DNA from: Candidatus Melainabacteria bacterium
GTDB taxonomy: Bacteria > Cyanobacteriota > Vampirovibrionia > 2-02-FULL-35-15
Reading direction: 5' to 3'
NCBI GenBank assembly: GCA_023250195.1
Contig: JAHFBF010000004.1
Coordinates: 131,675-195,674, forward strand
Length of the DNA: 64,000 nt
The position numbers and the translations under genes were made by a program. Positions 4,704 through 53,276 of this stretch are shown here, piece after piece. How positions within the stretch are numbered: the first letter of the stretch is position 1; every line of letters starts with the position of its first letter. The notes below the pieces were generated by a model that had not been told where the DNA came from, did no database searches, and worked only from the letters and a program-made list of their open reading frames with translations.

Positions 4704-5090
4704 TTATCGCTTTGCTGGATTAACCTGTGACTTTAAATCAGCAATCTCGGCTCTCAGCCCCGCAATTTCAGCTCTAATGTCGTTTAGCTCCATTGAATCA
4801 AGTAATGAATTATTTGTTAGTTCTGTAAGTTTATCTTTAATAAATCCTCTTATTTGTAACTCATTCATTTGGGCTCTGTGGGTAACTTCACTGATTAAGT
4901 GAGAAAGTTCTTCTTTTGCTTTCTCTTTTAATTTAGACTGAATTGGTTCATCAAGAGTTTTATTTTGTACTTTATCTCGAAAGCTGTTTACCTGAATTAC
5001 CAAGTCGCAGGCTTTCGACTCAAGCTTTTCTTTAATGATATCTACCGCAGCTTTTGCTGTGAGAATAACTTTTGCTAGATCTTTTATCAT
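4704..5090 (-). CDS. Small helical coiled-coil protein next to ABC1 kinase
   Basis: The 128-residue protein is almost entirely helical by eye and ends in a clear heptad coiled coil (NDIRAEIAGLRAEIADLKSQV, leucine/isoleucine spaced by 3-4), with a conserved-looking N-terminal helix (DLAKVILTAKAAVDIIKEKLES). This layout is reminiscent of phasin-like or UbiK-like accessory proteins, which also end in a coiled coil, but I cannot assign a family. Its stop lies 4 bases before the ABC1 kinase start, suggesting translational coupling and a role linked to that kinase. The start at 5090 is 24 bases from the family C repeat upstream. Confidence 0.7.
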   Translation of the reverse strand: MIKDLAKVILTAKAAVDIIKEKLESKACDLVIQVNSFRDKVQNKTLDEPIQSKLKEKAKEELSHLISEVTHRAQMNELQIRGFIKDKLTELTNNSLLDSMELNDIRAEIAGLRAEIADLKSQVNPAKR

Positions 5091-5114
5091 AAGTAAATTA
5101 TCTCATAGATTATT

Positions 5115-5203
5115 CATGTCATTCCCTGGCCTTGACCAGGGAATCCAGAAAGTATATTCTAGCTTTGTCATACTGGATTCCCGCTTTCGCGGGAATGACA
5201 TAC
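5115..5203. repeat. Family C inverted repeats (ATTCCC...GGGAAT), copy 1
   Basis: Two small hairpins lie back to back. The first is ATTCCCTGGCCTTGACCAGG followed by GAAT; the second is ATTCCCGCTTTCGCGGGAAT. The block is bounded by TGTCA at the left and TGACA at the right, so it also reads as one larger inverted repeat. The same arrangement recurs at 51872-51953. Translated in frame it gives the peptide LDSRFRGND, a familiar spurious extension of genes next to such repeats. It lies between the divergent genes at 5090 and 5218. ATTCCC-N8-GGGAAT has the form of the dRS3 repeats known from Neisseria. Confidence 0.85.
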
Positions 5204-5217
5204 TATGGGATAGCGTA

Positions 5218-6177
5218 ATGACAAAGAAAAACAAAAATTTGATTTGGGTTTATCCGCCAAATAACTGGGTTTCAAATTTTAATAAGACATTTGTTTATGG
5301 ATCGTCTAATCCTAGGGCAAAATTATTTGTTTCTGTCGAGGTAGATCAGCGTGTCTGCCCTGATATAAAATGGGGCAAACACATAGGTTTGCCCATACAA
5401 ATATTCCCAAACGGTAACTTTGCACAAGTTATTAAACTCCCTAAGAAAAAAAATGTTGTCAGTTTGATACAAATCTTAAATGGAAAGAAAAGGATTTTAA
5501 CAAGAACTGTCATTTCCATGTCATTGCGAAAGAAGAGACGTTGCATGCAACGTCTCAACAGCAATAATCATCAGTCTTGTTTGCCACAGGTTGATAGATA
5601 CCTCCAGAATGACATAGTCATCGTAATCGACCCCGGTCATGGTGGCAAAGAATATGGAACCCATTCTTCAAAAGGTATTCCTGAAAAGGTTTTTAATCTT
5701 CAAATTGCAAAATTGCTTTATAGAAAATTGACAATTGAGAATGGACAATTGAGAATTAAAAAACATAAAATAAAAATTTATTTAACACGAACCAAAGATA
5801 AATTTGTCTCATTAAAAGATCGTGTTGATTTTGCTAAAAAGAAGAAAGCGGATATTTTAATTTCAATTCATCATAATGCACTTCCTGACAATGAAGATCC
5901 TCTAAGACACAGAGGTGTAGGTGTTTATTTTACGCATGGTTTTGTAAAGCCATTTGCAAAGAAGCTTTTGGATTCTATTACAAAAGAAACAAAATTAAAA
6001 AAATATGGAATATTTAAAAGAGATTTTGCTGTAACAAGACCTGATTTCTACCATGGGATTTTAGTAGAATGTGGATTTTTGATACATCCTATAGAAGGGG
6101 AATATATTACACAGAGAAAGATTCAGAAGAAGATTGTTAGTGGGGCTATAAAAGAAATATTAGATCTTCTTAAATGA
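5218..6177 (+). CDS. N-acetylmuramoyl-L-alanine amidase (Amidase_3) with repeat insertions
   Basis: The catalytic domain has the zinc amidase pattern: IVIDPGHGGKEYGT (first zinc His), VFNLQIAKLLYRKL, VYLTR-like IYLTRTKDKFVSLKDRV, ISIHHNA (second zinc His) and ILVECGFL (catalytic Glu). It cleaves the amide bond between the glycan and stem peptide of peptidoglycan. I start it at ATG 5218 (MTKKNKNLIWVYPP); the longer open frame from 5035 runs through the family C repeat and the divergent promoter region. No signal peptide is evident. The N-terminal 130 residues form a small beta-rich domain. Two insertions are visible: a family D/A composite (5519-5614) between the domains, and a peptide IENGQLRIK from 5729-5760 inside the amidase domain. 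Confidence 0.85.
   Translation: MTKKNKNLIWVYPPNNWVSNFNKTFVYGSSNPRAKLFVSVEVDQRVCPDIKWGKHIGLPIQIFPNGNFAQVIKLPKKKNVVSLIQILNGKKRILTRTVISMSLRKKRRCMQRLNSNNHQSCLPQVDRYLQNDIVIVIDPGHGGKEYGTHSSKGIPEKVFNLQIAKLLYRKLTIENGQLRIKKHKIKIYLTRTKDKFVSLKDRVDFAKKKKADILISIHHNALPDNEDPLRHRGVGVYFTHGFVKPFAKKLLDSITKETKLKKYGIFKRDFAVTRPDFYHGILVECGFLIHPIEGEYITQRKIQKKIVSGAIKEILDLLK
5519..5614. repeat. Family D element with nested family A palindrome inside the amidase gene
   Basis: The outer ends are TGTCATTGCG and CCAGAATGACA, inverted copies of the family D termini seen at 13823-13902 and 48634-48744. Inside, at 5535-5556, is the perfect 22-bp family A palindrome with core GACGTTGCATGCAACGTC. The whole 96-bp stretch is a multiple of three and contains no stop in the amidase frame. 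It supplies the linker between the N-terminal domain and the catalytic domain, so it is tolerated as coding sequence. Confidence 0.75.
5729..5760. repeat. Short direct repeat (ACAATTGAGAAT units) inside the amidase gene
   Basis: Two tandem copies of ACAATTGAGAAT separated by GG occur here and encode LTIENGQLRIK. The family usually passes directly from the LYRKL-like helix to the KIYLTRT strand, so this looks like an in-frame insertion of a small repeat. A related stretch (AATGGAGAATTAATAATTGA) forms the last codons of miaB at 26322-26344. Confidence 0.5.
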
Positions 6178-6181
6178 GTTA

Positions 6182-7132
6182 CTAGAGGGTGTTATGAAAA
6201 TCAAATGCGTCATCAGATAGAGGGATATTGTTGATCGTTTTATTGTTAAGTATGGGTTTAATAAAGAAACGGTCAAGTTCATTCTTATCAAGAATGTTGT
6301 TTTGATTTCTGTCAGCTCCATCATTGATTATTGTAATTGTTCTGCCTGAGAGAAGCCTTGTAGCTACTTCTAGTGCTCTAGCTATAGGGGTTTGTTCACC
6401 TACAGCACCCCGTCTATTTCTCGGACTGCTTAAAGGATCCATGAAATTCATTAAATCTCTGTTAGTAGAGATTCTTATCATTTCATTGCCATTTCTAGAA
6501 GGCTCTAATTCTTCAAGGAGTCTCATTCTGGCTTCAAAAAGCTCTCTCATATTTGCTGCAAAAGGATTCGCATAAAAGCCTTCTTCGGTTATTGTTACTG
6601 TTGTTGTAATTTCACCAGGTTCAATAGGTCTAGTTTCTTGAGGAGTAATAGGATTTCGATGCCATGCACGTCTTGCAGCTTGTTCTGCTCGTCTTTGTTC
6701 ATCAGCTTTTCTTATTTCATTAGCTATAAAAACATCATAAGCACTGCGTACTTCCAGTGGAGCACTTGCATAAAGGGTAGTAAAGTCAATTGGAGCGCCA
6801 TCTGGCTCAAGACTTCTTCTTTTTGCTTGAATTAAATCTTCTAAAGTTAATGGTCCATTGGGAGGATTCCATGAAGGTCTTGTTGCTTCTTCTCCCCGTT
6901 CTTCTTTATTGGCTGTAAAAACATCATAAGCACTACGTACTTCCGGTGGAGCACTTGCATAACAGGTAGTAAAGTCAATTGGAACGCCATCTCGAATACC
7001 ATCCAGCCCAAAGCTTCTTTTTTTTGCTTGAATTAAATCTTCTACAGTCAAAGATTCATCGATAGGATACCATGCGCGAAATCTTCTTGGATCTATGAAT
7101 GGTGTTGTAGCTTGTATTCCTAAGTCTGACAT
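6182..7132 (-). CDS. Repeat protein with EF-hand-like calcium loop
   Basis: The 316-residue protein contains two copies of a ~45-residue repeat at residues 26-75 and 93-138, each with LxxEDLIQAK(K/R)RS, PIDFTT, YASAP.EVRSAYDVF and AN. Near the C-terminus, residues 274-285 read DRNQNNILDKNE, a full 12-residue EF-hand/dockerin-type loop with ligands at positions 1, 3, 5, 7, 9 and 12. No signal peptide or membrane segment is seen. I do not recognise the repeat family. A calcium-responsive structural or adaptor role is possible but unproven. It converges with the amidase gene 4 bases away. Confidence 0.65.
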   Translation of the reverse strand: MSDLGIQATTPFIDPRRFRAWYPIDESLTVEDLIQAKKRSFGLDGIRDGVPIDFTTCYASAPPEVRSAYDVFTANKEERGEEATRPSWNPPNGPLTLEDLIQAKRRSLEPDGAPIDFTTLYASAPLEVRSAYDVFIANEIRKADEQRRAEQAARRAWHRNPITPQETRPIEPGEITTTVTITEEGFYANPFAANMRELFEARMRLLEELEPSRNGNEMIRISTNRDLMNFMDPLSSPRNRRGAVGEQTPIARALEVATRLLSGRTITIINDGADRNQNNILDKNELDRFFIKPILNNKTINNIPLSDDAFDFHNTL

Positions 7133-8235: not shown

Positions 8236-8898
8236 TCATCTTTGACTTAAAGATAACCACTTTAACGCTGAATGTACCAGCGACTCGCTGTCTTTGTGGT
8301 TTCCATTTGGTTGGATTTGTGAAATTGCTTGATTTATTTCCTGATTTGAATAGCCTAATGATTGTAAAACTGAACGAGCATCATTTAGAGATAAGAGATC
8401 AGAGGTGAGAGATGGGATGTTTTTTCTGATCTCTGATCTCTCATCTTTGTTTCCTGAATATGCTATCGGTAAATGTTTCCAGTTTTTAATTTTTTCTTTT
8501 AGCTCCAGAATAATTCTGCCTGCGGTTCTTTCACCAATTCCCTGCGATTTTTTCAGGTGAGTAATATCATCGTTTAAAATTGAATAAGCAATTTCACTTA
8601 CAGTTAGATTGTTTAGTAAAGCCAAAGCAGTTTTTGGACCTATTCCTGAAACACTGAATAATAAATTAAACAATTCCTTTTCGATAAGGGATGGAAAACC
8701 ATACAATGTCATTTGATCTTCTTTGTGAATTAAAGTTGTATAGACTGTTGTGGTTTCGCCCTTTTTACCTATAAGTTCAAGTGCAGATAAGCTTGTGTGT
8801 ATCTCATAGCCAATTCCACTGACATCAAGGATAACTTTCTCAGAACCTGTAGGTTCTGTTATTTTTTCTGTAATTATTCCCCTCAAGAATTGGTACAT
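8236..8898 (-). CDS. ruvA: Holliday junction branch migration protein RuvA
   Basis: RuvA binds four-way junctions and loads the RuvB motor. The product has the N-terminal OB domain (MYQFLRGIITEK, VSGIGYEIHTS), the acidic-pin region, and both helix-hairpin-helix motifs (VSGIGPKTALALL and SQGIGERTAGRIILELK). The C-terminal RuvB-contact domain follows (DARSVLQSLGYSNQEINQAI). At 220 residues it is longer than the usual ~200. The excess is a family E repeat insertion (8388-8449) encoding DERSEIRKNIPSLTSDLLSL in the flexible linker before the C-terminal domain, where extra length should be tolerated. Confidence 0.95.
   Translation of the reverse strand: MYQFLRGIITEKITEPTGSEKVILDVSGIGYEIHTSLSALELIGKKGETTTVYTTLIHKEDQMTLYGFPSLIEKELFNLLFSVSGIGPKTALALLNNLTVSEIAYSILNDDITHLKKSQGIGERTAGRIILELKEKIKNWKHLPIAYSGNKDERSEIRKNIPSLTSDLLSLNDARSVLQSLGYSNQEINQAISQIQPNGNHKDSESLVHSALKWLSLSQR
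8388..8449. repeat. Family E element (GAGATCAGA/CATCTC) in ruvA
   Basis: On the minus strand the element reads as GAT(G)AGAGATCAGAGATCAGA facing CATCTCTCACCTCTGATCTC, an imperfect long inverted repeat built from direct 7-9 bp units. It lies in frame in the RuvA linker and encodes ERSEIRKNIPSLTSDL. Homologous copies in the same translated frame are in bioD (44144-44211) and pgk (52836-52895). Confidence 0.85.
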
Positions 8899-10455: not shown

Positions 10456-12203
10456 ACTGTAGTGGGAGGTCGCGACCTCCCACTACAGGAAATCTCGCCA
10501 TTTTCCAAAGCAATAACTTTATCGGAATTATTTATGGTTGACTGTTTATGGGCAATGATAATTACTGTTCTGTTTTTTACAAGTTCGTTAATTGCTTCTT
10601 GAATATATCCTTCTGATTCATGATCAAGATGGCTTGTTGGTTCATCCAGAATCAGTATTGGTGCATCTTTTAGGAATGCCCTTGCAAGAGCAATTCTTTG
10701 TCTCTGTCCCCCTGAAAGTTTTGTTCCGTTTTCACCGACAATTGTTTCAAAACCCTCGTAAAACTTTTCTACAAATTCCATTACATGAGCCTTTCTTGCT
10801 GCTTCAAGAATCTCTTGTTCAGTAGCAGTCGGTTTTCCAAACACAATATTTTCTTTTACTGAACAGTTAAAAAGAACCTGTTCCTGTGTTACCAGAGCTA
10901 TTTGAGATCTTAAAGAATGAAGATCTATTGTTTTAATATCAAAGCCATCAATTTCAATACTACCGGCTTGTGGATCGTAAAAGCGAGGAATAAGACTTAC
11001 CAGAGTTGTTTTACCAACTCCTGATGGTCCAATTAATGCAACTTTTTCCCCTGGATTAATTTCCAAATCTATATTTTTTAGAACTTCCTGACCATCGGAA
11101 TATTTAAAATTTATATTTTTAAATACAATCTGTCCCCGTAGAGTCCTTGCATGCAAGGACTCTACGGATGATTGTAATGAAGGTTCTTGATCTAACACTT
11201 CAAAAACTCTTTCACTTGCACCAAGAGCCTGTTGTAATGTAGACCATACGCGGCTTATTCTTTTAATTGGTTCGTATAAAAGAACTGTTGTTAAAAAGTA
11301 AGAAGAGAAATCTCCAAGTGTAATTTGATGAAGAATTACGCTTTTCATCCCGCACCAGAAAACAAAAGCTACTCCGCATGCACCGACAAGTGCCGTAATC
11401 GGAGAAATCATAGCTTCAATTGTTACTGTCTTTCTTAGGGTTGAAAAAAGTCTTGAGTTTATTTGTTGAAATTGTTTGTCTCTGACTGACTCAAGGTTAT
11501 AGGCCTGAGATAATTTTAGGTTCTGTAAACTTTCCTGAACATAAGCAGAAATATCACCGATATTTTCCTGTCCTTTTCTACTCAACTTTCTTAATCTTTT
11601 AGCCAAATTTGCAACTGGAATAACAAAGAGAGGTATAACTACTGCTGCAATAAGTGTTAAATACCAGTTTACTGAAAGCAGCCATGCAAAGAGAAAAATA
11701 GCTTTGCTTGAGTCATTAAAAATAGTTGTAATTGTTTCTGCTACCCAGGATTGAACAGCAACAAGATCATTTGTAGCCCTTGAAACATAAGTTCCGCTCA
11801 TTTCTTTTGTAACTTGAGATAGAGATAATTTTTGAAGATGCTCGTGTAATTTGTTTCTAATATCTCGTACAGTTGCAATGCCTACGTAACGTACGCAAAA
11901 TTGATATAAAAATCTTAATATGCCGTCAATAAAATAAGCTGTAACAATTAATATGGGAATTAAACCAAGTAATTCAGTGGTATGAATGCTCATGCTTGGT
12001 GAACCAACAAGAGTTTTAAGTTGTTTTGGCAGAAGGAAAATTCTTCCCTGCTGATTTGGCATATTTAATCCATCAACGGAGATCTTTACAAGCCATGAAG
12101 GCAGCAGGGAAATAAATCCCCCAAGAATCATAGAGAAAAATGCAACGGAGAATAAAAGCCAGTATTTTTTTCCATATGACAATAATCTGGATAATGTGTT
12201 CAT
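10452..12203 (-). CDS. msbA: MsbA-type ABC transporter (fused TMD-NBD)
   Basis: This half-transporter has a six-span N-terminal domain and a C-terminal ATPase with Walker A GPSGVGKTT, signature LSGGQRQR, Walker B ILILDEPT and H-loop AHKQST. MsbA-type exporters flip lipid A-core or other amphiphiles across the inner membrane, fitting the lpt genes nearby. The open frame reaches 12239 through a family A palindrome. I choose the ATG at 12203 (MNTLSRLL), but the palindrome itself offers AGAGG six bases before the ATG at 12239. Two further palindromes sit in the gene: one in the TMD-NBD linker (peptide ESLHARTLRG) and one forming the C-terminus (CSGRSRPPTTV). Confidence 0.9.
   Translation of the reverse strand: MNTLSRLLSYGKKYWLLFSVAFFSMILGGFISLLPSWLVKISVDGLNMPNQQGRIFLLPKQLKTLVGSPSMSIHTTELLGLIPILIVTAYFIDGILRFLYQFCVRYVGIATVRDIRNKLHEHLQKLSLSQVTKEMSGTYVSRATNDLVAVQSWVAETITTIFNDSSKAIFLFAWLLSVNWYLTLIAAVVIPLFVIPVANLAKRLRKLSRKGQENIGDISAYVQESLQNLKLSQAYNLESVRDKQFQQINSRLFSTLRKTVTIEAMISPITALVGACGVAFVFWCGMKSVILHQITLGDFSSYFLTTVLLYEPIKRISRVWSTLQQALGASERVFEVLDQEPSLQSSVESLHARTLRGQIVFKNINFKYSDGQEVLKNIDLEINPGEKVALIGPSGVGKTTLVSLIPRFYDPQAGSIEIDGFDIKTIDLHSLRSQIALVTQEQVLFNCSVKENIVFGKPTATEQEILEAARKAHVMEFVEKFYEGFETIVGENGTKLSGGQRQRIALARAFLKDAPILILDEPTSHLDHESEGYIQEAINELVKNRTVIIIAHKQSTINNSDKVIALENGEISCSGRSRPPTTV
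10457..10488. repeat. Family A palindrome at the msbA 3' end
   Basis: A perfect 32-bp palindrome with centre GGGAGGTCGCGACCTCCC and ends CTGTAG/CTACAG. It encodes the last residues of MsbA and lies just after the stop of the convergent flippase gene, where it could act as a bidirectional transcription terminator. Confidence 0.85.
11136..11167. repeat. Family A palindrome in the msbA linker
   Basis: A perfect 32-bp palindrome, ends CCGTAGAG/CTCTACGG and core CCTTGCATGCAAGG. It is read in frame as VESLHARTLRG between the transmembrane and ATPase domains of MsbA. Confidence 0.9.
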
Positions 12204-18858: not shown

Positions 18859-19431
18859 TTACCTCAACACTTTAATGCTTTTGTTTGTAATTTGAATTAT
18901 TTTTGATGGCTTCAAAGACATCTCACTCTTTTTAGCCTTTATAAACAATTTTACTTTTTTAATCAATTCTTTTTGCGGTATGCGATCACTTTTCCCGGAA
19001 ATATTTGCACTGGTACTTGCTAAAACCTGTTCCGGAGATTGTTTTAGCAGCTTTAATAGAAATTTGTTGTTTGGTACCCTGACACCAATTGTTTTAAAGT
19101 CTTTATTTAAGAATTTTGGTACTGCTTTTGAAACAGGAAGAATTATTGTTAAAGGACCAGGCCATTGTTTAATTAATTGTCGTAGAGGCGTTGCATGTGG
19201 TACAGACGTTGCATGCAACGTCTCTATGCAGACAAATTTCTTTAGCGCTTGCCAGCTATACCCAAGCAGAATTAAAGGCTTTTTTCGTGCTCTTTTTTTC
19301 AATTTGTAGATTTTTTTAACAGCTTCTTTTGAATCATATCTGCAAACCAGACCATACACTGTATCGGTAGGAACTATAATTGGCTCATTATTTAAAATTA
19401 AATTGAAAGCTTTTTTAGACAATATTTTCAT
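18859..19431 (-). CDS. tsaC: Threonylcarbamoyl-AMP synthase (TsaC/YrdC/Sua5 domain)
   Basis: The 190-residue YrdC-domain protein has PIIVPTDTVYGLVCRYDS, the KKRARKKPLIL segment that binds threonine/ATP, IGVRVPNNKFLL and ASTSANISGKSD. TsaC makes threonylcarbamoyl-AMP for the t6A modification of ANN-decoding tRNAs. Between KFVCI and LIKQWPGPLTIILP there is an insertion ETLHATSVPHATPLRQ encoded by a double family A element (19181-19228). It replaces a surface loop, and the conserved motifs on both sides are intact. The C-terminus is short, with no Sua5 domain. Confidence 0.88.
   Translation of the reverse strand: MKILSKKAFNLILNNEPIIVPTDTVYGLVCRYDSKEAVKKIYKLKKRARKKPLILLGYSWQALKKFVCIETLHATSVPHATPLRQLIKQWPGPLTIILPVSKAVPKFLNKDFKTIGVRVPNNKFLLKLLKQSPEQVLASTSANISGKSDRIPQKELIKKVKLFIKAKKSEMSLKPSKIIQITNKSIKVLR
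19181..19228. repeat. Double family A element in tsaC
   Basis: A partial copy (CGTAGAGGCGTTGCATG) is followed directly by a fuller copy with core GACGTTGCATGCAACGTC and end TCTCTATG. The total is 48 bp, in frame. The second copy has the same core as the amidase-gene palindrome at 5535. It looks like one element landing in, or duplicating beside, another. Confidence 0.85.
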
Positions 19432-43790: not shown

Positions 43791-44528
43791 TTGTTCTCAG
43801 CCTCAACACTTTTTATAACTGGCACAGACACAGGTGTTGGTAAAAGTCTTTTTTCAGCAATACTTGCTCTCTCTTTTTTTAATCAAGGTAAAAAAGTTTG
43901 TATTTCAAAACCTATTCAAACAGGGTCTCCAAAAGATACTGATCTTTTGGCTGAGTTAACAGGAAATAAAATCCCAAATTTTAATACTTATAGTTTTTCA
44001 CTTCCTGCAGCACCAGTAGTTTCAGCAAAACAGGAAAATAAAGAAATTAGCATTGAAAAAATTATTTCTGATATTAAATCACTTGAAGAAAAATATGATT
44101 GTGTAATTGTTGAAGGGATTGGCGGAATTGCAGTGCCAATTACAGAGATCAGAGATCAGAGATCAGAGATCAGAGAGAATTCCCATCTCCCATCTCCCAT
44201 CTCCCATCTCTATTTAGTGGCTGATTTAATTAAAGATTTAAACTATCCTGTAGTCATTGTGGCTAGCCCATTGTTAGGGACTCTTAACCACTCAGTCTTA
44301 ACCATTGAGTTTGCAAAACAAAAAAGATTAAATATTTTAGGCTTTGTAATCTCTGGTTATAATGAGGTTTCCAGCGATCCAGTTATAAAAACCTCACCCG
44401 ATGTAATTTCTGAAATAACTAAGATTAAATGTTTAATGAAAGTTCCAATGGTTAAGAAAATGAGTTTTGAGTCAATTAATTTGATTTCTAAGTCCATTGC
44501 TTTTGAAGAAATAAATGTGTTAACATAA
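43791..44528 (+). CDS. bioD: Dethiobiotin synthetase
   Basis: BioD closes the ureido ring of dethiobiotin from DAPA, CO2 and ATP. The 245-residue product has LFITGTDTGVGKSLFSAIL (P-loop), KPIQTG, the VEGIGGIAVPI segment and the later VVASPLLGTLNHSVLT. Between AVPIT and LVADLI lies an insertion EIRDQRSEIRENSHLPSPI, encoded by a family E element (44144-44211). Without it the protein would be the usual ~220 residues. The start is a TTG at 43791, three bases after ftsZ; no ATG gives a complete P-loop. With bioY in the window, biotin synthesis and uptake are both represented. Confidence 0.92.
   Translation: MFSASTLFITGTDTGVGKSLFSAILALSFFNQGKKVCISKPIQTGSPKDTDLLAELTGNKIPNFNTYSFSLPAAPVVSAKQENKEISIEKIISDIKSLEEKYDCVIVEGIGGIAVPITEIRDQRSEIRENSHLPSPISHLYLVADLIKDLNYPVVIVASPLLGTLNHSVLTIEFAKQKRLNILGFVISGYNEVSSDPVIKTSPDVISEITKIKCLMKVPMVKKMSFESINLISKSIAFEEINVLT
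44144..44211. repeat. Family E element in bioD
   Basis: Four direct copies of AGAGATC face four copies of CCATCTC across AGAGAATTCC, giving a long inverted repeat of ~68 bp. It encodes RDQRSEIRENSHLPSPISHL, the same frame as the elements in ruvA and pgk. Confidence 0.9.
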
Positions 44529-51995: not shown

Positions 51996-53276
51996 ATGGA
52001 TCAACTAACCGTTAAAGACATACCTCAAAAAGATTTGGAAAACAAAAGAGTTCTTGTAAGGGTTGATTTTAATGTACCTACTGAAAAAAAAGATAATAAG
52101 ATTGTAATTACCAATGACCTTAGAATAAGAGCTTCTCTTCCTACTATTCAGTATTTAACAGCTGCTAAAGCAAAAGTAGTTCTTGTTTCTCACTTAGGCA
52201 GGCCAAAAGGTTTTGACAGTGATCTTAAAATGGATCCAATAGGGGAAAGACTTTCACAATTACTTGGTAAAAAAGTTCTGAAATTAAATGATTCAATAGG
52301 ACCTGAAGTTCAGACCGCAGTTAATAATTTGAAAGCAGGGGGAGTCTGCCTTCTGGAAAACATAAGATTTTATAAAGAAGAAGAAAAGAATGATCCTGAC
52401 TTTGGAAGGAATCTGGCAAAATCGTTTGAAATCTATGTCAATGATGCTTTTGGTACAAGCCATCGTGCACATGCAAGTACGGCAGGAGTTTGTGCTTTTT
52501 TAAGTCCATGTCTTGCAGGCTTGTTACTGCAAAAAGAAGTTGACTCTTTGACAAAGGTTCTTGCTAATCCAGTTAGACCATTTACTACGATTCTTGGAGG
52601 CAGCAAAATTTCTTCAAAGATTAAAGTTATAAAACAATTAATTCTAAAAGTAGATACATTGTTAATTGGTGGGGCTATGGCATTTACATTTGTAAAAGCT
52701 AAAGGCGGTAAAATTGGAGATTCTCTTTATGAAGAAAATTGTATTCCTCTTATTAAGGAGCTTGATACCCTTAAAGAAGAATATGCTGTAGCATTGGTTT
52801 TACCTGAAGATATGGTTTGTGTAAAAACAGAGAACAGAGATCAGAGATCAGAGATCAGAAAAAATTCTCACCTCTCATCTCTCACCTCTGATCTCAAGAT
52901 TTTCCCCATAGATAAAATCCCTGATGGTTATGTAGGTCTGGATATTGGTCCGAAAACTATTGAAAAATTTGTAAAAATGATTAGTCAGTCAAAGACACTG
53001 TTCTGGAATGGTCCTATGGGAATGTTTGAAGATAGTCAGTTTGCTGTTGGGACAAAAGCAATTGCAGAAGCTCTTGTTGAAGCTACAAAGAAAAAATCTA
53101 CTACTGTTGTAGGTGGAGGAGATTCTGTTACTGCGTTGGAAGACTTAAAAATTTCTTTTGATTTATTTACTCACGTAAGTACAGGCGGTGGTGCATCGAT
53201 AGAATTTATTGAAGGGAAAGTTTTACCTGGGATTGCATGTTTAGATAAGAAACTTTCTGTAAAGTCAAATACATAA
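51996..53276 (+). CDS. pgk: Phosphoglycerate kinase
   Basis: PGK makes ATP and 3-phosphoglycerate in glycolysis. The product has VLVRVDFNVPTE, SHLGRPKG, LLENIRFYKEEEKND, the hinge region, GPMGMFED, VVGGGDSVTAL and TGGGASIEFIEGK. I start at MDQLTVKDIPQ (51996); the open frame from 51948 begins in the family C repeat. The 426 residues exceed the usual ~395 because a family E element (52836-52895) inserts NRDQRSEIRKNSHLSSLTSDL in the nucleotide-binding domain between EDMVCV and FPIDKIPDGYVGLDIG, at a known variable loop. Confidence 0.95.
   Translation: MDQLTVKDIPQKDLENKRVLVRVDFNVPTEKKDNKIVITNDLRIRASLPTIQYLTAAKAKVVLVSHLGRPKGFDSDLKMDPIGERLSQLLGKKVLKLNDSIGPEVQTAVNNLKAGGVCLLENIRFYKEEEKNDPDFGRNLAKSFEIYVNDAFGTSHRAHASTAGVCAFLSPCLAGLLLQKEVDSLTKVLANPVRPFTTILGGSKISSKIKVIKQLILKVDTLLIGGAMAFTFVKAKGGKIGDSLYEENCIPLIKELDTLKEEYAVALVLPEDMVCVKTENRDQRSEIRKNSHLSSLTSDLKIFPIDKIPDGYVGLDIGPKTIEKFVKMISQSKTLFWNGPMGMFEDSQFAVGTKAIAEALVEATKKKSTTVVGGGDSVTALEDLKISFDLFTHVSTGGGASIEFIEGKVLPGIACLDKKLSVKSNT
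52836..52895. repeat. Family E element in pgk
   Basis: GATCAGAGATCAGAGATCAG faces CTCACCTCTCATCTCTCACC then TCTGATCTC. Translated RDQRSEIRKNSHLSSLTSDL, nearly identical to the bioD and ruvA peptides. Confidence 0.9.

Follow-up and report, generated by a model that had tools for sequence, protein, structure and literature searches.

Several families of in-frame repeats occupy three variable loops of an Amidase_3 gene in a Candidatus Melainabacteria genome

A gene for a putative cell-wall amidase (Amidase_3) in the genome of a Candidatus Melainabacteria bacterium, an uncultured relative of cyanobacteria, appears to be a living gene that has kept several in-frame mobile or repetitive elements in three tolerant surface segments, a reading to which we assign a probability of about 85%. 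The gene lies in a 64,000-nucleotide stretch of DNA (the window, i.e. the whole stretch that was analysed), which is part of a MAG of 2.21 Mb in 7 contigs; the named relatives of this source genome are also Candidatus Melainabacteria MAGs.

Repeat elements in and before the amidase gene

The gene and the repeats associated with it are as follows (window coordinates).

5117-5200, no strand assigned: C element, a dimer of two facing hairpins of the TGTC-ATTCCC..GGGAAT-CCA type, in the 5' leader
5218-6177, + strand: Amidase_3 gene, 319 aa; Pfam PF01520, E 6e-38; start codon conserved among relatives
5341-5398, + strand: G element, a GTAG-type REP doublet in the N-domain loop, encoding VDQRVCPDIKWGKHIGLPI
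5519-5614, + strand: D element in the inter-domain linker, read in the frame MSLRKK...QND
5535-5556, no strand assigned: A palindrome GAGACGTTGCATGCAACGTCTC (perfect), nested within D
5728-5757, + strand: heptamer array TTGACAATTGAGAATGGACAATTGAGAATT (TTGACAA TTGAGAA TGGACAA TTGAGAA TT) in the catalytic-domain loop

The first-pass annotation had described the gene as a mosaic of repeats, with a C block just upstream of the start, a D element with a nested A palindrome in the linker and a third small repeat giving IENGQLRIK in the catalytic domain. All of these elements are present where it had placed them. The G element of the N-domain was overlooked, and the intragenic elements are thus four (G, D, A and the heptamers), not three.

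The intragenic repeats belong to genome-wide families. The D end GTCATTGCGAG has 122 matches in the genome, the A palindrome 15 sites and the G family, whose hairpin is GGGCAAACACATAGGTTTGCCC, 17 matches, with 0 for the reversed-pattern controls in each case; (TTGASAA)3-like arrays have 42 matches (0 in controls). In 263 kb of sampled genome sequence, the C family is represented by six further copies in which both ends are present. A search of the window against Rfam gave no match.

Since the start codon (ATG 5218) is conserved, the C block upstream of it can be regarded as a leader element; the ortholog of genome G003 is also preceded by a C-type element. Note that the amidase frame is open upstream across all of the C element (5035-5217), beginning with an ATG that borders this element. 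An N-terminal extension encoded by the element is possible, and it is unconserved among relatives.

The heptamer array supplies most of the IENGQLRIK segment, in a loop that precedes strand 183-189. It is absent from the PDB relatives and from most orthologs, and the 8-10 aa at this site are missing from the PDB relatives and from the shortest orthologs. Two of the repeats would bring in a stop codon if they had their consensus sequence: read as in the amidase, consensus A would give TAG (GTAGAGACG) at a position of the left foot where the amidase copy reads AAG, and the heptamer consensus would give TGA (AAT TGA CAA) where the amidase copy reads GGA. The TGGACAA variant is found elsewhere in the genome too, so that the change from TGA to GGA need not have originated in the amidase. 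The amidase copy of A has lost both feet (T to A in each).

The uncharacterised gene adjoining the amidase (6182-7132, - strand) contains a direct duplication with a period of ~190-200 bp (6716-7074).

The amidase gene is intact

The PF01520 profile is matched over positions 1-172 of 174 with 131 bits (cut-off 27), and the best relative of the protein, both by sequence and by fold, is 4rn7. A structure model and Foldseek delineate an N-terminal beta-sandwich (~aa 9-100), a linker and a catalytic domain (~aa 133-318); in the model, the N-terminal ~100 aa form a beta-sandwich without a named family. Residues H141, E156, H218 and E284, which we take to be the zinc ligands and the catalytic glutamate of the Amidase_3 family, are invariant in the ortholog alignment and align with their counterparts in 4rn7 and 1jwq. 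Alignment with Amidase_3 proteins, which had been put forward as a check, gives a full-domain match and bears out the earlier statement that the catalytic residues are intact. The reading frame is open throughout, without a frameshift that would mark the gene as dead, and the repeats introduce no in-frame stop.

The presence of several insertions in one gene could suggest that the repeats are the debris of a decaying pseudogene. We consider this very improbable, given the open frame, the invariant catalytic residues, the intact orthologs in ten other genomes and a pN/pS of 0.24-0.29 relative to four relatives, with numerous synonymous differences; the pseudogene reading was rejected. Judged by its sequence (open frame, invariant residues and pN/pS), the gene is not dead.

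The structure model (built on 7 sequences; mean pLDDT 73) has pLDDT values below 50 at aa 43-55 and 103-129, which are the G and D/A inserts. The open frame, the avoided stops and the low pLDDT at the inserts fit what is expected of tolerated, translated inserts in a gene that is presumably expressed.

The amidase and its orthologs begin with a MTKKNKNLIWVYPP-like sequence (5218-5260), without an obvious signal peptide; the second amidase of the source genome (L049:11454-12827) differs in this respect.

Different repeats fill the same three loops in relatives

We compared the amidase with its orthologs from ten members of the family (11 genes in all). They share a conserved core, and residues beyond it are found almost only in the N-domain loop, the linker and the catalytic-domain loop. 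In different species, these same three loops are occupied by different genomic repeats. The N-domain loop holds an A-type repeat in G001 and G003, GGTCAATTCATGAATTGACC in G005 and another palindrome in G002. The linker holds an A-type repeat in G001, two palindromes in G002 and D elements in G003, G005, G008 and G009. The catalytic-domain loop holds an A-type repeat in G001 and G002 and GAGACTTGCGGCCGCAAGTCTC in G005. Two candidate inserts of relatives, in the catalytic-domain and N-domain loops, are degenerate, and several orthologs have no recognisable palindrome.

A count of perfect hairpins with arms of at least 10 bp in the 11 orthologs, with codon-shuffled genes as the null, gave a result beyond chance: 8 of 8 lie inside the three loops (19% of the sequence), and codon shuffling predicts 0.45 such hairpins in total for all 11 genes. 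Hairpins with 7-bp arms are little above chance (25 observed versus 14 expected), and arms of 9-10 bp or longer were adopted for this reason.

In the G009 amidase (L010, ~nt 689-718), a TGTAAGGGCACG..CGTGCC-type palindrome encoding RARHGTPLQ lies at a fourth place, within the catalytic domain; it is found in G009 only.

Could a single ancestral insertion per loop, inherited throughout the family and later diverged or overwritten, account for this distribution? In its favor, G005, G008 and G009 share the codon at which D begins (VIARR frame), most N-loop inserts start with Val-Glu, as expected if the GTAGAG foot of an old REP were translated, and an ancestral insertion has been argued before for the extended RPE-4 of Rickettsia (PMC3767692). 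We nevertheless find this account doubtful, if conceivable, because the same sites hold repeats of more than one family and frame, with palindromes still intact, and because the 11-genome tree, whose inner nodes are weak, shows no clean pattern of inheritance. Among the orthologs, A occurs in each of the three frames (VETLHATSL-like, RRCMQRL and RGVACN-like) and D in two (MSLR.. and VIARR..). One ancestral insertion cannot yield such differing frames, which argues that several insertions were independent; the D elements of the three genera sharing the VIARR frame may still have a common ancestry. Given the weak inner nodes, the insertion events are left without a formal count. We observed no target duplication and no close strain with an empty site.

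The first-pass annotation had seen here a case of protein growth by repeat capture. The comparison with ten relatives upholds in-frame capture; growth is modest (319 aa versus ~286-323 aa in relatives), since the relatives carry inserts of their own. Turnover of inserts at tolerant sites would therefore be a better description of the case than growth.

D elements avoid genes: only 2 of 16 lie inside ORFs, versus a coding density of 89%, which makes it remarkable that D occupies the linker in five orthologs of a single gene. Together with the repeated presence of inserts in most orthologs, this avoidance could be taken to mean that the inserts are selected, for instance for a longer linker or for altered binding or regulation of the amidase. 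Such adaptive capture seems improbable to us: the insert sequences are unconserved across species, a recognisable palindrome is missing from several orthologs, and many unrelated enzymes of the same genome hold similar repeats. We favor instead tolerated, nearly neutral inserts in a living gene.

REP classes and candidate transposase genes

The A and G elements can be classed as GTAG double-foot REPs. Indeed, GTAGAGACGTTGCATGCAACGTCTCTAC, a palindrome bounded by GTAG and CTAC, has 13 sites in the genome (at most 2 mismatches), and the same kind of palindrome is found inside RAYT/TnpAREP genes, in their own frame.

L138:1225-1755: RAYT/TnpAREP gene of the source genome, with an intact A 28-mer in its own frame
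L165:1198-1686: RAYT/TnpAREP gene of the source genome, with G in its own frame
L167:1471-2001 (also L164, L166, L168, L210 and L213-L216): RAYT/TnpAREP genes with an in-frame GTAG...CTAC palindrome

In these genes, the HUH and WQ/Tyr motifs flank the palindromes. The amidase and the RAYT gene of G009 (VGADQRVCPKLIRGKHIGLPL) read G in one and the same frame, and the frame and peptide of the amidase insert are shared with the RAYT genes L165 and L168. Double-foot REPs in frame within tnpAREP have been described for TnpAREP subclass 2.4, common in Cyanobacteria (PMC6006769). The RAYT genes described here, with their palindromes between the HUH and Tyr motifs, resemble this subclass, to which we assign them on the in-frame REP and the HxH/WQ/NNP motifs rather than on a tree; unlike in subclass 2.4 as described, the same palindromes also occur here in frame in a host enzyme. 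Outside the family, the A 28-mer is present in 27 genomes of the phylum, reaching 118 copies; the genomes of family f5, the dominant family of the same class in our sample, all lack it.

Two candidates were set aside. A single privileged REP frame, derived from the source copy in a transposase gene, is ruled out because A occurs in all three frames, and the IS200-type TnpA genes of G001 and G008 (L161 and L162) were discarded as having no link to REPs.

The C element, and probably also D, resembles a second class of REPs. The CGTC-1 layout consists of a CGTC or TGTC tag, an 8 bp stem starting with AT, a 4-nt loop and a CCA tail, arranged as dimers (PMC3733652). The right half of C reads TGTC-ATTCCCGC-GAAA-GCGGGAAT-CCA and the left half has a longer stem; with its TGTC tag, AT-starting 8-bp stem, 4-nt loop, CCA tail and head-to-head arrangement, C fits a CGTC-1 REP dimer, as known from intragenic REPs. 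The D element ends in (C/T)GTCATTGC...GCAATGAC(A/G) in 12 complete copies; with these GTCATT ends, similar to those of C, it is probably a CGTC-type REP. No transposase was found for C or D.

Elsewhere in the window, an A-type palindrome lies in frame in the TsaC (L-threonylcarbamoyladenylate synthase) gene (19203-19224), and a diverged one lies in an ABC transporter gene, ahead of the nucleotide-binding domain (11141-11162).

GAGATCA heptamers in other genes of the genome

A second heptamer, GAGATCA with an inverted arm, has 74 matches in the source genome and almost none in relatives, including those of the same genus. ORFs contain 31 of the 37 clusters; 28 of these are in the sense orientation, and the other three are opposite arms of the same inverted repeats. 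The share inside ORFs equals the coding-density expectation, so that GAGATCA clusters do not avoid genes. The elements are in frame in ~30 genes, many for core enzymes, and nearly always in the stop-free orientation. The hosts include PGK, BioD, RuvA, FolP, RlmN, CysI, GlmM-like, RecJ, S1, CarB, UbiX and PriA, as well as CinA, PabB/TrpE and AtpG; three of the elements lie in the window and others at further loci.

8388-8456: GAGATCA element in RuvA
44142-44210: GAGATCA element in BioD
52827-52895: GAGATCA element in PGK
L042, L121-L136 and L082-L109: GAGATCA elements at other loci

In ortholog alignments of PGK and RuvA, the insert is found in the source genome only. Missing from close relatives, the GAGATCA elements are, as judged from these comparisons, a lineage-specific burst. 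Whatever the frame, a 7-nt unit is translated into the same cyclic peptide, and GAGATCA is stop-free this way round, its complement not; this accounts for the tolerance of the elements rather than for their spread.

Discussion

The data are best accommodated by a scheme in which short mobile or repetitive DNA would land in the N-domain loop, the inter-domain linker and the catalytic-domain loop. A and G would have spread, most likely, as single-stranded hairpins through the TnpAREP (RAYT, HUH/Y1) transposases of the same genome, C and D would be inverted-repeat dimers of the CGTC type without a known transposase, and the heptamer array would be a tandem repeat of the slippage type. In-frame, stop-free insertions would survive because their peptides lie in flexible loops away from the active site, and relatives would refill the same loops with other repeats, making these sites recurrent sinks. 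One may further speculate that the GTAG foot of a first REP is the target for the next TnpAREP insertion, in which case the loops would be lasting landing pads where families replace each other in frame across genera, as a continuing supply of new loop sequence for conserved enzymes; we hold this extension to be unlikely.

The phenomenon as such is known, since intragenic REPs, RPEs and insertions at the same site have been described (PMC3733652, PMC2229807, PMC3767692); the case is new. Rickettsia RPEs are palindromic repeats of ~100 bp or less that Ogata, Claverie and colleagues found inserted, with the frame kept, at exposed sites of conserved proteins whose genes are retained, and in some genes different RPE groups lie near the same place of orthologs (PMC2229807, PMC3767692). 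The amidase inserts are like RPEs in their mode of insertion, to which the comparison is confined. They differ in belonging to another phylum, in the stacking of several unrelated families in one gene and in that the same genome holds candidate transposase genes for two of the repeat families. GTAG and CGTC REPs, short tagged hairpins, occur inside ORFs, Cyanobacteria included, and the recB genes of two Xanthomonas species carry different REPs at about one site (PMC3733652); unlike the intragenic REPs so described, those of the amidase recur at three sites in eight genera of one family. As for the heptamers, the TAACTGA repeats of Beggiatoaceae and cyanobacteria are mostly intergenic and contain a stop in forward reading (PMC4679880). 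The amidase arrays resemble them, and the cyanobacterial STRR repeats, in being built of 7-nt units, and differ from the TAACTGA arrays in lying in coding sequence. A literature search for palindromes in Melainabacteria returned unrelated papers only.

What is unusual here, and gives the case its value, is that several families are stacked in one gene and recur at three loops, with transposase genes at hand. The amidase amounts to a natural experiment: a single enzyme with a conserved core, in which three sites hold at least four repeat families over eleven genomes, and for which candidate transposases are available. With it, one can address directly whether proteins do no more than tolerate mobile palindromes or gain usable loops from them, and the GAGATCA burst in core enzymes of the same genome makes this question testable genome-wide.
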